From Geothrix sp. PMB-07 (GTDB lineage Bacteria; Acidobacteriota; Holophagae; Holophagales; Holophagaceae): DNA of 64,000 nucleotides. A program made the translations under genes and the position numbers. Shown in pieces: positions 3,412-7,602 of the stretch. The notes beneath the pieces are model-generated. The model was not told the origin of the DNA. It made no database searches and saw only the letters and a program-made list of their open reading frames with translations. The stretch's first letter is position 1, and the number at the start of each line of letters is the position of its first letter. Where the stretch lies: NCBI RefSeq assembly GCF_030758935.1, contig NZ_CP132333.1, positions 2,170,992-2,234,991 of the forward strand. Reading direction: 5' to 3'.

Positions 3412-4314
3412 ATGCGGATCAACACCCTCGATGAACTCCTCCGCGCCGTGAAAGACCGCCCCCGCAAGCGCCTGGTGGTGGCCTGGGCCAACGACGCCCA
3501 CACCCTGGAAGCGGTGAATGCCGCGGTGGAAGCGGGACTGGTGGAAGCCATCTTGGTCGGCGATGAAGCCGCCATCCTGAAGGTCTTCGGAGAACTGGGC
3601 CTGGCCAAGGAGCGCTTCCGCATCGTGCACACCGCCACAGACACCGAAGCCGCCTCCAAGGCCGTGGGCATGGTGCGCTCCGGCGAGGCGGACCTGCTCA
3701 TGAAGGGGCTCCTCAGCACCGACAAATACATGCGCGCCATCCTGAATAAGGAACAGGGCCTGCTGGATCCTGGCGCCATTCTCAGCCACGTGACCGTCAT
3801 GGAGCACCCCGGCCATCCCAAGCTCATGATCGCCGGTGACGTGGCCGTGATCCCCGAACCGGAGTTCAAGGAGAAGCTCGCCATCCTCAACTACCTGGTG
3901 AAGACCGCCAAGGCCCTGGGCATCGAAACCCCCAAGGTGGCTGTGCTGGCGGCTTCCGAGCAGGTGCTGCCCAAGATGAGTTCCAGTTCCGATGCGGCCA
4001 TGCTCTCGAAGATGGCGGACCGCGGCCAGATCAAGGGCGCCCTGGTGGACGGCCCTCTGGCCTTGGACGGCGCCATCGACCCCGAAGCCGCTCAGATCAA
4101 GGGATTGGTCGGCCCCGTGGCCGGCGATGCCGACTGCCTGCTCTTCCCCAACATCGAGGCTGGCAACGTGTTCTACAAGGCCGGCACCAAACTGGGCGGC
4201 GCCGAAATCGCCGCGGTAGTGGTCGGCGCGCGCGTGCCCTGCGTGCTCAGCAGCCGCGGCGACAGCGCGAAAACCAAGCTCAGCTCCATCGCCTTGGCGG
4301 CATTGCTGGCCTGA
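3412..4314 (+). CDS. ptb: phosphate butyryltransferase-like acyltransferase
   Basis: This 300-residue protein belongs to the phosphate acetyl/butyryltransferase family, which swaps an acyl group between CoA and inorganic phosphate. Its length matches phosphate butyryltransferase rather than the longer Pta. Visible family segments are LMKGLLSTDKYMRAILNKEQ, LSHVTVMEHPGHPKLMIAGD, KVAVLAASEQVLPKM, GALVDGPLALDGAI, LLFPNIEAGNVFYKAG and CVLSSRGDSAKTKLSSIALA. AGGA before ATG 3412 supports the start. A phosphotransacylase-butyrate kinase fusion is encoded convergently about 1 kb away, so the locus has two phosphotransacylase domains. Acetyl versus butyryl or branched-chain specificity cannot be read from sequence. 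Confidence 0.92.
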   Translation: MRINTLDELLRAVKDRPRKRLVVAWANDAHTLEAVNAAVEAGLVEAILVGDEAAILKVFGELGLAKERFRIVHTATDTEAASKAVGMVRSGEADLLMKGLLSTDKYMRAILNKEQGLLDPGAILSHVTVMEHPGHPKLMIAGDVAVIPEPEFKEKLAILNYLVKTAKALGIETPKVAVLAASEQVLPKMSSSSDAAMLSKMADRGQIKGALVDGPLALDGAIDPEAAQIKGLVGPVAGDADCLLFPNIEAGNVFYKAGTKLGGAEIAAVVVGARVPCVLSSRGDSAKTKLSSIALAALLA

Positions 4315-4336
4315 GCACCATGCCCCGCGTGGATCA

Positions 4337-4369
4337 GAAGGGCGCAGAGGAGAATGCCCTGCGCCCTTC
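4337..4369. terminator. hairpin between ptb and the lanthipeptide-type gene
   Basis: A perfect 11-bp stem (GAAGGGCGCAG / CTGCGCCCTTC) encloses an 11-nt loop just after the ptb stop codon. The plus strand continues GTGTTCTC, so there is no clean T-tract. Because the hairpin is symmetric, it could end both ptb and the opposing lanthipeptide-type transcript. Confidence 0.55.
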
Positions 4370-4444
4370 GTGTTCTCTGCCACCACCTTGACGAGACGAT
4401 ATGGCTTAAAATGGCTCCTCTCGTCCGATGGTTTATTTGGCCGC

Positions 4445-4618
4445 CTACTTATCCCACCAGCAGATGTGTCGATTCGTGGTGAAGCATTCATTCACGTAAC
4501 AAGTCTGGCAGCTGTAAGTCACTCTTCCACCGCCAGCAACCCCATCGGCTGCTTCAGACGTCAGGTCCTTCAGCGTTTCCTTCTTGAGGTTCAATTTCTT
4601 CTCGTTCTGCTTCACCAT
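4445..4618 (-). CDS. class I lanthipeptide-type precursor peptide
   Basis: This 57-residue gene looks like a ribosomally made, modified peptide precursor. The leader (residues 1-30) is charged and contains KKLNLKKETLKDL, like the KLxLxKETL leader of class I lanthipeptide precursors known from Bacteroidota and relatives. It ends in VAGGG, a double-glycine-type cleavage site. The core that follows has four Cys (37, 40, 45, 53) and five Ser/Thr (34, 36, 39, 47, 48), which could form several lanthionine rings, and ends in CWWDK. GAGGAGG five bases before ATG 4618 fixes the start; an in-frame upstream extension to 4789 has no such support. No LanB, LanC, peptidase or transporter gene is nearby. 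The call rests on leader and core composition; a disulfide-bonded peptide is the alternative. Confidence 0.75.
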   Translation of the reverse strand: MVKQNEKKLNLKKETLKDLTSEAADGVAGGGRVTYSCQTCYVNECFTTNRHICWWDK

Positions 4619-4639
4619 GGAAGCCTCCTCGGATGGATT

Positions 4640-4658
4640 TGGATTCCAGCGGAATCCA
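4640..4658. promoter_or_regulatory. palindrome upstream of the lanthipeptide-type gene
   Basis: TGGATTCCAGCGGAATCCA is a perfect inverted repeat with 8-bp arms and a 3-nt spacer. It lies 22-40 bp upstream of the precursor start codon, just ahead of the GAGGAGG ribosome binding site. It could be an operator for a dimeric regulator or a stem-loop in the mRNA leader. Confidence 0.5.
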
Positions 4659-4804
4659 GGTTGGGGTTGATGGATGGATCCTACCCACCGACCAGACCGT
4701 GGCGACCCCACGCATTCAAACTCGACACAGCCACAGGGCGGAGCGACACATCGCCCTGGGCGAACGTCACTTCCACCCAGGCGAACCAAATGGTCGCCCT
4801 GCCC

Positions 4805-5116
4805 CTAGCCGACCCGCCAGCTGCATTGGGAGGGGATCGGGGTGTCTGCGGGATTGCTGGCCTCCGCGGCGGCGGCTCCCTCGTGGTATCCGTACTTCAA
4901 GTGTTCTGGATGCGCCATGAGGCTCCAATCCAGATCCGGATCCCGGTGCTCGAACCATTCGCCAACCTGATAGACACAGCTCGCGCAGGTGGCGAAGGTG
5001 GGGCCGGAAAGCTGCCGCACTTCATCCTTCAACGGGTGACACTGCACCAAGGGACAACCCAAAATCAGAAGCCAGCTGCCCAGACCTGAAGGGTCGCTCG
5101 TTTGGATGTATTCCAT
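4805..5116 (-). CDS. hypothetical Cys-containing small protein
   Basis: I do not recognise this 103-residue reading frame. It has four clustered cysteines, GCPLVQCHP (about residue 20) and TCASCVYQ (about residue 43), which might bind a metal. An acidic-aromatic stretch follows (GEWFEHRDPDLDWSLMAHPE). Third codon positions are G or C in roughly three quarters of codons by my hand count, in keeping with real coding. ATG 5116 is preceded by GGGG at a plausible distance; GTG 5119 is an alternative. It lies on the same strand and 186 bp upstream of the lanthipeptide-type precursor, so the two could share a transcript. It may be an unrelated orphan or a spurious frame. Confidence 0.45.
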   Translation of the reverse strand: MEYIQTSDPSGLGSWLLILGCPLVQCHPLKDEVRQLSGPTFATCASCVYQVGEWFEHRDPDLDWSLMAHPEHLKYGYHEGAAAAEASNPADTPIPSQCSWRVG

Positions 5117-5391
5117 CACATGCCCCGTGGTCAGGTGATCCTAGCTTCATGAGCCTGGTCAGGGTCCGAAAGCAAGGATCTTACTGTTGCAGGGCCACTT
5201 CACGTTGAAGGTGGCACAGCGCATGGGCCGACCTGCACTCAGGTCCAGCTGAGTGACACGCTGTGTCGGTTGGATCAAATCAGGGCGAAGGTGGAGCCCT
5301 CTGTCCAAACCACAACCTCATGGGACGGGGAGACCATGAGGAAGGTTTTCCAGCCTCCTCGTGATCTCCCAGTCGTTGTGAGGGATCTCCC
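5117..5391. other. intergenic stretch between butyrate kinase fusion and small Cys protein
   Basis: I see no convincing gene in these 275 bases. A short palindrome (TGAGGGA / TCCCTCA with a 2-nt spacer, 5379-5394) overlaps the stop codon of the butyrate kinase fusion and may form a small hairpin at its mRNA end. Confidence 0.4.
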
Positions 5392-7602
5392 TCAAACCGT
5401 CGGCGGATAATCCTTCGCCACTTCGCGCCCTGCCAACACGCGCAGGGCACCCTTGGCCAGGGCGGCCATCTCGTTTTCGCCAGGGTAGACCTGCACGGGG
5501 CACCCCAGGGATACGGTATAACGCGTGAGGTCGGCCACCAGCTTCTTGGAGCGGGCCATGCCACCGGTCAGCAGAATGGCATCGATGGGTTCGCCCTCGA
5601 AGGCCGGCGCCAGAGCCGTGATGTTCTTGGCAATCTGGTAGACCATAGCTGAGTAGACCAGCGCCGCCTCGGCATCACCTTCATCCACGCGGCGTTCGAC
5701 TTCGCGCATGTCGGCGGTGCCCAGCAGGTCGATGAGTCCGCCGCGTCCCTTGTTCAGGAGCTTCAGCTCGGCCTTGGTGTACTTGCCGGAGAAAAAGAGA
5801 TCGATGAGCTGGCCCGGCGGCAGGCTGCCGGAGCGCTGGGGCGAGAAGGGCCCTTCCCCATCGAGGCCGTTGTTCACATCCAGGTAGTGGCCCTTGCGGT
5901 GGGCACCGACCGTGATGCCGCCGCCCATGTGAGCCACGATGACATTGATGCGCTCGTAGAAGGTTTCGCGCTCCTCGGCGAAGCGCCGGGCCGTGGCGAT
6001 CTGGTTCAGGGCGTGACTCACCACGCGACGCGGCAGCTCCTTGATCCCCGTGATCTTCACCTTCTCTTCGACCTCGTCCACCACCACCGGATCGACGATG
6101 AACGCGGGTTTGGTGGTGCCTGCCACCAGCTCAGCGGCGATGAGGGCGCCCAGGTTGGACGCGTGCTCGCCGCGCTTGCCTTCGCGCAGATCCTTCAGCA
6201 TGGCTTCACCCACATTCCATGTTCCGTGGGGGATGGGACGCAGCAGCCCGCCGCGGCCCGCCACCGCATCCAGATCCGCCAGGGACAGACCCTGGTCGGA
6301 CAGGAAGCGCAGCACCGCATCCTTGCGGAAGCTGAATTGATCGGTGATGGGCTTGCCCTCAAAGCCTTTCAGGGCCTCGGAGGCATGCTGGATCTCTTCG
6401 GTGCAACGCTCCTCGTCTCCCTCGTACACGGAGGTCTTGGTGGACGTCGAGCCGGGGTTGAGCACCAGCACGCGGTGACGCCGGAAGAAGGTGTCCTTGG
6501 GTGTGCGGTTCCACTCGCCGTAGGCGTGCAGGCGCATGACGGAGGCCTTCACCGCGAGACGGATGTCCTCGGGCGTACAGTCCATGGCCAGATCCACCCC
6601 CTGGAACCGGAGGCCGAACATCACGGGGAACTTGCGGGCATCCGGGAAGCGGGTGCCATAGAGGTGGTAGAGCAGGTTGCCCATGTCGAGGTTGGGGCAG
6701 ACGATGACATTGGGGCCGCCCTCCCAGGGCAGGCCGTCAGCTTCGTATAGCCCCGCGGAACGCCGCGAGAGCGCCACGCTGACCTTCACCTCGCTGCGAA
6801 TGTGGATGGTCCCGTAGCGGGGAGAGTGGGCCACCCGCTCGGCCAGGATGGCCGGTACCAGATCCGCGGCCTGGCGCACCAGTTCAGGCGAGGGGCCTTC
6901 GTCGCTGCCCCGGTTGGAATAAGACACCATGGCACAGCGGATCTCGGGCAGGACGTCCTCGGGAATGAGGTCGCGGGCCACGGCGCAGGTACCCACGGCC
7001 ACTTCCGCGAGGATGCGGGGCGACATGCTGGCGTTCACGCCCACATCGCCGAAAACCACGATGTTGTGAGGGTAGACATCCTGCGGGTGCTCATCGGGCA
7101 GTACGAAAATGCCCGCTTCACAAGTGACCTCGCGGTGGGCCAACAGATCCACCATGGGCCGGAAGAAGGCCTTGGGTTCGTGGATGGCGCCGCCCACCAC
7201 CATGTCGGCATGGCCCAGCTTCACGGCCCAGATGCCGAAGTGGCCGGGCTCCGAAACCTGGGCGCGGGCTTCATCCAGGGTGATCGTCCTGCCCTGCGAC
7301 AGGTTCCATTCCACACAGGCTGCGGTGAAGGCCTCCACCAGGTCCGGACGGGAGGACGGGTCCAGGAAGGCGCTTTCGGAAAGGGTGTAGGCGACGCGAT
7401 CCTCGCCGAGGTGACTCAAGTCGCGGGCGGCCATGGCCCGCACGTTGGCTTCGGGCGCGAGGAAGACAGGCCGGATGAACCGGCCCAGAAAGCAGGCGGC
7501 TTCGAGGGTGCGGGCGTCCAGGGCCTCCGGGAACACCACTGTGGGGCGGTTCCGGGGCACGGCCAGGAGACGGCTGTCGAGGGAGGCTTCGATGTCAAAC
7601 AT
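5392..7602 (-). CDS. phosphate acyltransferase-butyrate kinase fusion protein
   Basis: This 736-residue protein joins two enzymes that are normally separate. Residues 1 to about 370 resemble the phosphate acetyl/butyryltransferase domain (HADMVVGGAIHEPKAFFRPM, VGVNASMSPRILAEVAVG, RCAMVSYSNRGSDEGPSPEL, NVIVCPNLDMGNLLYHLYG). From about 374 a complete butyrate kinase begins with LVLNPGSTSTKTSVYEGD, followed by MGGGITVGAHRKG (about 555) and DGEGPFSPQRSGSLP (about 581), both ASKHA acid-kinase signatures. Acyl-CoA would be converted to acyl-phosphate and then to acid plus ATP, or the reverse for acid activation. GGAG precedes ATG 7602. It is encoded convergently to a separate ptb. Whether the N-terminal domain uses acetyl-, butyryl- or branched acyl-CoA is unknown. 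Confidence 0.92.
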   Translation of the reverse strand: MFDIEASLDSRLLAVPRNRPTVVFPEALDARTLEAACFLGRFIRPVFLAPEANVRAMAARDLSHLGEDRVAYTLSESAFLDPSSRPDLVEAFTAACVEWNLSQGRTITLDEARAQVSEPGHFGIWAVKLGHADMVVGGAIHEPKAFFRPMVDLLAHREVTCEAGIFVLPDEHPQDVYPHNIVVFGDVGVNASMSPRILAEVAVGTCAVARDLIPEDVLPEIRCAMVSYSNRGSDEGPSPELVRQAADLVPAILAERVAHSPRYGTIHIRSEVKVSVALSRRSAGLYEADGLPWEGGPNVIVCPNLDMGNLLYHLYGTRFPDARKFPVMFGLRFQGVDLAMDCTPEDIRLAVKASVMRLHAYGEWNRTPKDTFFRRHRVLVLNPGSTSTKTSVYEGDEERCTEEIQHASEALKGFEGKPITDQFSFRKDAVLRFLSDQGLSLADLDAVAGRGGLLRPIPHGTWNVGEAMLKDLREGKRGEHASNLGALIAAELVAGTTKPAFIVDPVVVDEVEEKVKITGIKELPRRVVSHALNQIATARRFAEERETFYERINVIVAHMGGGITVGAHRKGHYLDVNNGLDGEGPFSPQRSGSLPPGQLIDLFFSGKYTKAELKLLNKGRGGLIDLLGTADMREVERRVDEGDAEAALVYSAMVYQIAKNITALAPAFEGEPIDAILLTGGMARSKKLVADLTRYTVSLGCPVQVYPGENEMAALAKGALRVLAGREVAKDYPPTV

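Follow-up and report, generated by a model that had tools for sequence, protein, structure and literature searches.

A probable class I lanthipeptide precursor gene between ptb and ptb-buk in Geothrix sp. PMB-07, with candidate maturation enzymes encoded 132 kb away

The window analysed here, a stretch of 64,000 nucleotides from the single-contig, 4.24 Mb genome of Geothrix sp. PMB-07 (G000), contains on its minus strand a lanA-type precursor gene of 57 codons (4445..4618; ATG at 4618, stop at 4447-4445), whose translation is MVKQNEKKLNLKKETLKDLTSEAADGVAGGGRVTYSCQTCYVNECFTTNRHICWWDK. Hereby, the leader comprises approximately residues 1-31 (4618-4526) and the core approximately residues 32-57 (4525-4448), with four Cys and five Ser/Thr downstream of VAGGG. 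The ATG is preceded by a Shine-Dalgarno sequence, GAGGAGG (4624..4630, minus), which forms part of a string, GGAGGCTTCC-ATGG, common to five dispersed precursors. The GC content of the gene is 50%, compared to 65% in the surrounding DNA. A first-pass annotation, made from the DNA letters, had given the same coordinates without a strand and had described a 57-residue gene with a strong ribosome binding site and a core of exactly this Cys and Ser/Thr count, all of which agrees with the minus-strand reading.

The fermentation-gene setting that it had reported is likewise found, as the precursor is flanked by a phosphate butyryl/acetyltransferase gene (ptb; 3412..4314, plus) on the left and by a phosphotransacylase-butyrate kinase fusion (ptb-buk; 5392..7602, minus) on the right, both of which are conserved flanks. 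In the product of the fusion gene, a single protein of 736 aa, the phosphotransacylase domain is N-terminal and the butyrate kinase domain C-terminal. A GC-rich inverted repeat read by eye (GAAGGGCGCAG...CTGCGCCCTTC; 4337..4369) lies between lanA and ptb, which are convergent, and represents a possible shared terminator of the two; the terminator scan did not call it, and terminator and sigma-70 scans returned nothing on the minus strand. Upstream of the precursor, on the same strand, lies a 103-aa gene (4805..5116, minus) that belongs to a functionally uncharacterised family of small proteins; it has a paralogue at G000:C1:2,150,901 (61%) and homologues in the related genomes G016, G015, G006, G011 and G027. 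This gene may or may not be part of the precursor system. In a comparison set of 47 species-level genomes of the genus (this genome and 46 others), the gap between ptb and ptb-buk (window 4315-5391) was placed in 28 loci, the window included. Depending on the locus, the gap is nearly empty or contains a nitroreductase-like gene (a name given from reading the sequence), another hypothetical gene or, in two species only, the precursor. Judged by these contents, the gap is a variable cargo site and not a metabolic operon containing the peptide.

An orthologue of the precursor is present in one of the 46 related species (G016), where a 55-aa peptide with 70% identity is encoded at the same chromosomal site, between the same two flanking genes. 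The two genes differ at 46 nucleotides, 25 of which are third codon positions, and the peptides at 18 of 55 residues, resulting in a dN/dS of 0.12 (NG86) to 0.19 (LWL85). In neutral simulations, so many residues were kept in 0 to 0.02% of cases (≤1 in 5000), depending on kappa, while more than 80% gained a stop codon. Both parts of the peptide are conserved, with 8 differences in 31 leader residues and 10 in 24 core residues; within the core, three Cys and three Ser/Thr are kept and the fourth Cys (of YSC) is replaced by Arg. According to this substitution pattern, the precursor peptide is under purifying selection between the two species, and selection and synteny together rule out that 4445-4618 is a chance open reading frame. 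The same data bear on the possibility of a decaying remnant, i.e. a duplicated precursor that moved away from its enzyme cluster and is no longer used. Such a history would be in line with the dispersed copies, with the low GC content of the gene relative to its surroundings and with the degenerate state of the operator-like repeat described below. However, leader and core are both under purifying selection, the ribosome binding site and the upstream element are intact and the position is identical in both genomes, so that a remnant appears very unlikely. A search of genome contigs with the 57-aa peptide for related loci found nothing.

The leader contains the motif LxLxKx5L and a Gly-Gly end (LNLKKETLKDL...VAGGG). 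The profile comparison proposed in the first-pass annotation yields a match of residues 6-30 to the NCBIfam model lant_leader_L1a (NF038153) with 20.3 bits (E=4.5e-4), just below the curated cut-off of 22 bits, while the G016 orthologue scores 25.1 bits and lies above it. Leaders with LxLxKx5L and Gly-Gly have been described for class I lanthipeptides of Bacteroidetes, where they are tied to C39 proteases (PMC7268733). For the core, TCxxNECxTxNRHICW, no family match was found. As GG leaders are common to several RiPP classes, the gene could principally also encode a RiPP of a different class that is rich in Cys, or a double-glycine bacteriocin that stays unmodified, either of them sharing such a leader, and one of the G016 precursors (on contig C30) indeed gives a weak hit, 17.4 bits against a cut-off of 25, to an rSAM-target leader model. 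Against this, the only leader model besides L1a that matched the window peptide is the class I model L1b, and LanC co-occurs exactly with L1a leaders, which makes a peptide of another class the least probable of the explanations considered here.

That no modification gene lies nearby, as stated in the first-pass annotation, holds for LanB and LanC, since the only copies in the genome (two LanB genes, one LanC gene) are located outside the window. A whole-genome search for LanB, LanC and C39 peptidases, which it had suggested, revealed a complete class I cluster (L007; G000:C1:2,030,000-2,043,500), with a distance of 132 kb between the window gene and LanC. The cluster encodes a LanB (LanB-I; PF04738 and PF14028), LanC, an HlyD protein, a C39-peptidase ABC exporter and a second ABC protein, together with one LytS-type kinase, two LytTR regulators and a second L1a-type precursor, MEKQDGKKKLSLNKETLKSLTQKEEGEVAAGGLSYFVCRTDYCGTKGRSCWC. 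LanC (PF05147) shows the WCYG and CHG motifs, which carry the zinc ligands in NisC, and aligns to solved LanC structures including that of NisC. In the C39 peptidase exporter (L007:6644-8782; PF03412, 125 bits), the Cys/His/Asp motifs are readable. An alignment search of genome contigs with LanB returned one record, a contig of a groundwater Acidobacteria MAG (JACPYP010000011). LanC is present in 2 of the 47 genomes, namely G000 and G016, which are also the only ones with L1a-type precursors. This co-occurrence rests on two possibly sister species, in which shared descent alone could produce the pattern, and may thus correspond to one or few evolutionary events.

LanB as such is found in 27 of the 47 genomes; in the five clusters from four further species that were compared, it is of a second type, 40-45% identical to LanB-I. 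In the present genome, the second LanB (LanB-II, C1:2,469,560-2,472,673) is of full length and is accompanied by its own LytS/LytTR pair, and a real precursor could hence be modified by this genus-wide enzyme, either with the help of LanC or ring-free. Yet, enzymes of the LanB-II type are present in species that lack the L1a leader, LanB-II adjoins a conserved, mostly Cys-free small ORF whose leader-like start (LSFRKESIQ) is a different one, and both LanC and the GG-cutting exporter belong to the L007 cluster. We therefore regard modification by LanB-II as unlikely and modification by LanB-I as the preferred reading.

LanB-II deserves separate mention, as it occurs genus-wide and most of the genomes that carry it do so without LanC. 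In nearly every locus read, it adjoins a member of a short ORF family (MNSSLSFRKESIQRSSSASE...REQRPISLTTxLTx) with a conserved leader-like start, a variable middle and a Ser/Thr-rich composition with a Thr-rich end, Cys being found in very few copies. The copy of this genome is located at C1 ~2,472,878-2,473,033 (L008:11879-12034, plus), homologues are found in the loci L078, L082, L083, L084, L086 and L013-L037, and the copies tested gave no Pfam or NCBIfam match. By its composition and position, the family looks like a candidate precursor of a LanC-independent, dehydrated, ring-free peptide. LanB-II and its small gene family are possibly more novel than the window precursor.

The L1a leader recurs elsewhere in this genome as well as in a related species. 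Six L1a-type precursors were identified, three in G000 (the window gene, the L007 cluster precursor and a gene at C1:4,161,875) and three in G016 (on contig C18, i.e. the orthologue, 144 kb from LanC, and on C30 and C9). The G016 cluster orthologous to L007 (LanB 77%, HlyD 84% and C39 exporter 77% identical) contains no leader-bearing ORF in its 19.5 kb, the regulator-exporter stretch that carries the precursor in G000 being absent there. With a cluster devoid of a precursor and all three precursors elsewhere, maturation in trans is nearly forced in G016, if maturation occurs. The third G000 precursor (MEFTKKLNLTRETLCHLGNEDLNHVVGGGGG...; C1:4,161,875-4,162,060, minus; L010:7858-8061) has a GC content of 38% compared to 65% in its surroundings, adjoins a transposase-like fragment and possesses a different upstream region; from these features it was probably acquired recently. 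L1a-like precursors with cores containing Cys, Ser and Thr were also observed outside the genus, in three further genera within the family (L115:1447-1650, minus; L116:1438-1674, minus; L117:1498-1653, plus).

Because leader, core and enzymes fit, the window gene is, as far as can be judged from sequence, very probably the precursor (LanA) of a class I lanthipeptide, matured by enzymes acting in trans; the clustering of a precursor with lanB and lanC, which is usual but not strictly defining for LanA, is not seen here, given the 132 kb between them. The class I interpretation of the first-pass annotation thus gains support from the leader model, the LanB/LanC/C39/HlyD cluster and the leader homologues, and its notion of maturation in trans from the remote cluster and from the G016 cluster without a precursor. 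It had reckoned with a genome free of RiPP enzymes and relatives free of leader homologues as the outcome that would speak against it; both the enzymes and the homologues are present. The label orphan is right as to the genomic location of the gene.

A common upstream element precedes five of the six precursors, namely the two orphans (the window gene and G016 C18), the L007 cluster precursor and G016 C30 and C9. It consists of two 13-bp repeats at a 21-bp period (e.g. GTGTCACTCAGCC-N8-GTGTCACTTAGCC), followed by a TAGGATC box and then by GGAGGCTTCC-ATGG. In the window, the candidate -10 box TAGGAT (4678..4683, minus) is shared with the upstream regions of three other precursors; in G016 C9 the box reads GATGATT instead of TAGGATC. 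The background frequency of TAGGAT in the loci examined is 0.044 per kb per strand. A candidate LytTR-type operator, made up of two imperfect direct repeats with a 21-bp period (GTGACGTTCGCCC / GTGTCGCTCCGCC; 4737..4770, minus), is situated 53 bp before TAGGAT. Hereby, the distance between repeat and box is 53 bp in both orphans and exactly 42 bp in the three non-orphans, a difference of 11 bp or about one helical turn, and the repeat is strong in the non-orphans and degenerate in the orphans; for the cluster precursor, the strong site is L007:4246-4279. A profile built from the three non-orphan upstream regions recovered the two orphans as the best new matches in ~300 kb (E 5.8e-5 and 1.8e-4), with the held-out match falling in the -10 box and 5' leader region, outside the repeat. 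When the repeat itself is judged with a held-out PWM, 0.14% of random windows of 180 bp score as high as the site at 4737..4770 and 0.23% as high as that of the other orphan. The element is absent upstream of the lanBC operon, and the promoter model R1 found no convincing member across the 47 genomes besides its five training sites.

Two candidate members of such a regulon were rejected. Upstream of the 103-aa gene, a weaker second copy of the 21-bp-period repeat is present (5226..5259, minus), with TAAGAT 42 bp further; homologues of this gene examined elsewhere have no upstream repeat, the weak copy being found only in this genome. The precursor at C1:4,161,875 was discarded as no repeat lies upstream of it. 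LytTR sites comprise repeats of 9-11 nt, in direct or inverse orientation, separated by spacers of 11-13 nt (PMC4847170), and in Streptococcus mutans bacteriocin genes are under the control of LytTR regulators (PMC6193735). Given the shared element, its LytTR-like repeats and the two LytTR regulators in the cluster, the dispersed precursors are likely co-regulated, which suggests one regulon, and the predicted operator at 4737-4770 may be bound by a LytTR regulator.

On the basis of the family membership of the enzymes, the following route can be proposed. LanA would be translated from the ptb locus, and LanB-I of the remote cluster would recognise the KKLNLKKETLKDL leader and dehydrate Ser/Thr of the core via glutamyl-tRNA, the co-substrate used in class I LanB dehydration. 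LanC would then add core Cys to the dehydro residues. As three Cys and three Ser/Thr are kept in the orthologue and the fourth Cys is Arg there, the simplest guess is three thioether rings, which would involve the Cys of QTC, NEC and HIC and the conserved Ser/Thr. The C39 domain would cleave after Gly-Gly and the exporter, together with the HlyD adaptor, would secrete the peptide. The dispersed precursors would probably be switched on together by a LytTR regulator of the cluster. The pairing of enzyme and substrate, the ring pattern, the identity of the regulator, secretion and a biological role, possibly antagonism or signalling, are accordingly worded here as proposals.

In the open-access literature we found no report of dispersed precursors of this sort for class I and no paper combining Geothrix and lanthipeptide. 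A large lanthipeptide survey considered precursors within seven genes around the LanC gene (PMC7268733), and surveys that search within a few genes of LanC would miss dispersed class I precursors. Here, a leader profile together with the promoter element that they have in common uncovers them, and the example of G016, whose cluster holds no precursor, suggests that seemingly empty enzyme clusters may be served from elsewhere. With three precursors, one LanB/LanC pair and one predicted operator, the system is a small and directly testable case.

Among known systems, the class I precursors of the Bacteroidetes type (Walker et al. 2020, PMC7268733) share the LxLxKx5L motif, the Gly-Gly end and the C39 exporter with the window precursor, and their genomes contain, as here, a full-length LanB and a separate LanC. 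In contrast to them, the window precursor lies 132 kb from the enzyme cluster and the host belongs to an Acidobacteriota genus. The candidate operator resembles the LytTR bacteriocin promoters of the HdrR/BrsR systems of Streptococcus mutans (PMC6193735), in which a pair of direct repeats, spaced by about two turns of the helix, precedes the promoter and the LytTR regulator is encoded within the system, but it differs from them in repeat sequence and is further from the -10 box. The precursors of prochlorosins and synechococsins (class II, ProcM/SyncM) can be scattered and modified by one LanM (PMC10783134). Common to prochlorosins and the present case are scattered precursors, some alone among unrelated genes, one modification system that here, too, would act in trans, and a conserved leader with a variable core. 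Prochlorosins, however, rely on a LanM, a Nif11 leader and ~30-80 precursors, as opposed to LanB plus LanC, an L1a leader and about three precursors here, and the shared upstream repeat element sets the dispersed precursors described here apart from them. We give even chances to a class I counterpart of prochlorosins, in which one LanB/LanC/C39 cluster would serve scattered lanA genes tied together by a LytTR-type promoter element; if true, class I precursors, too, can sit anywhere in a genome.
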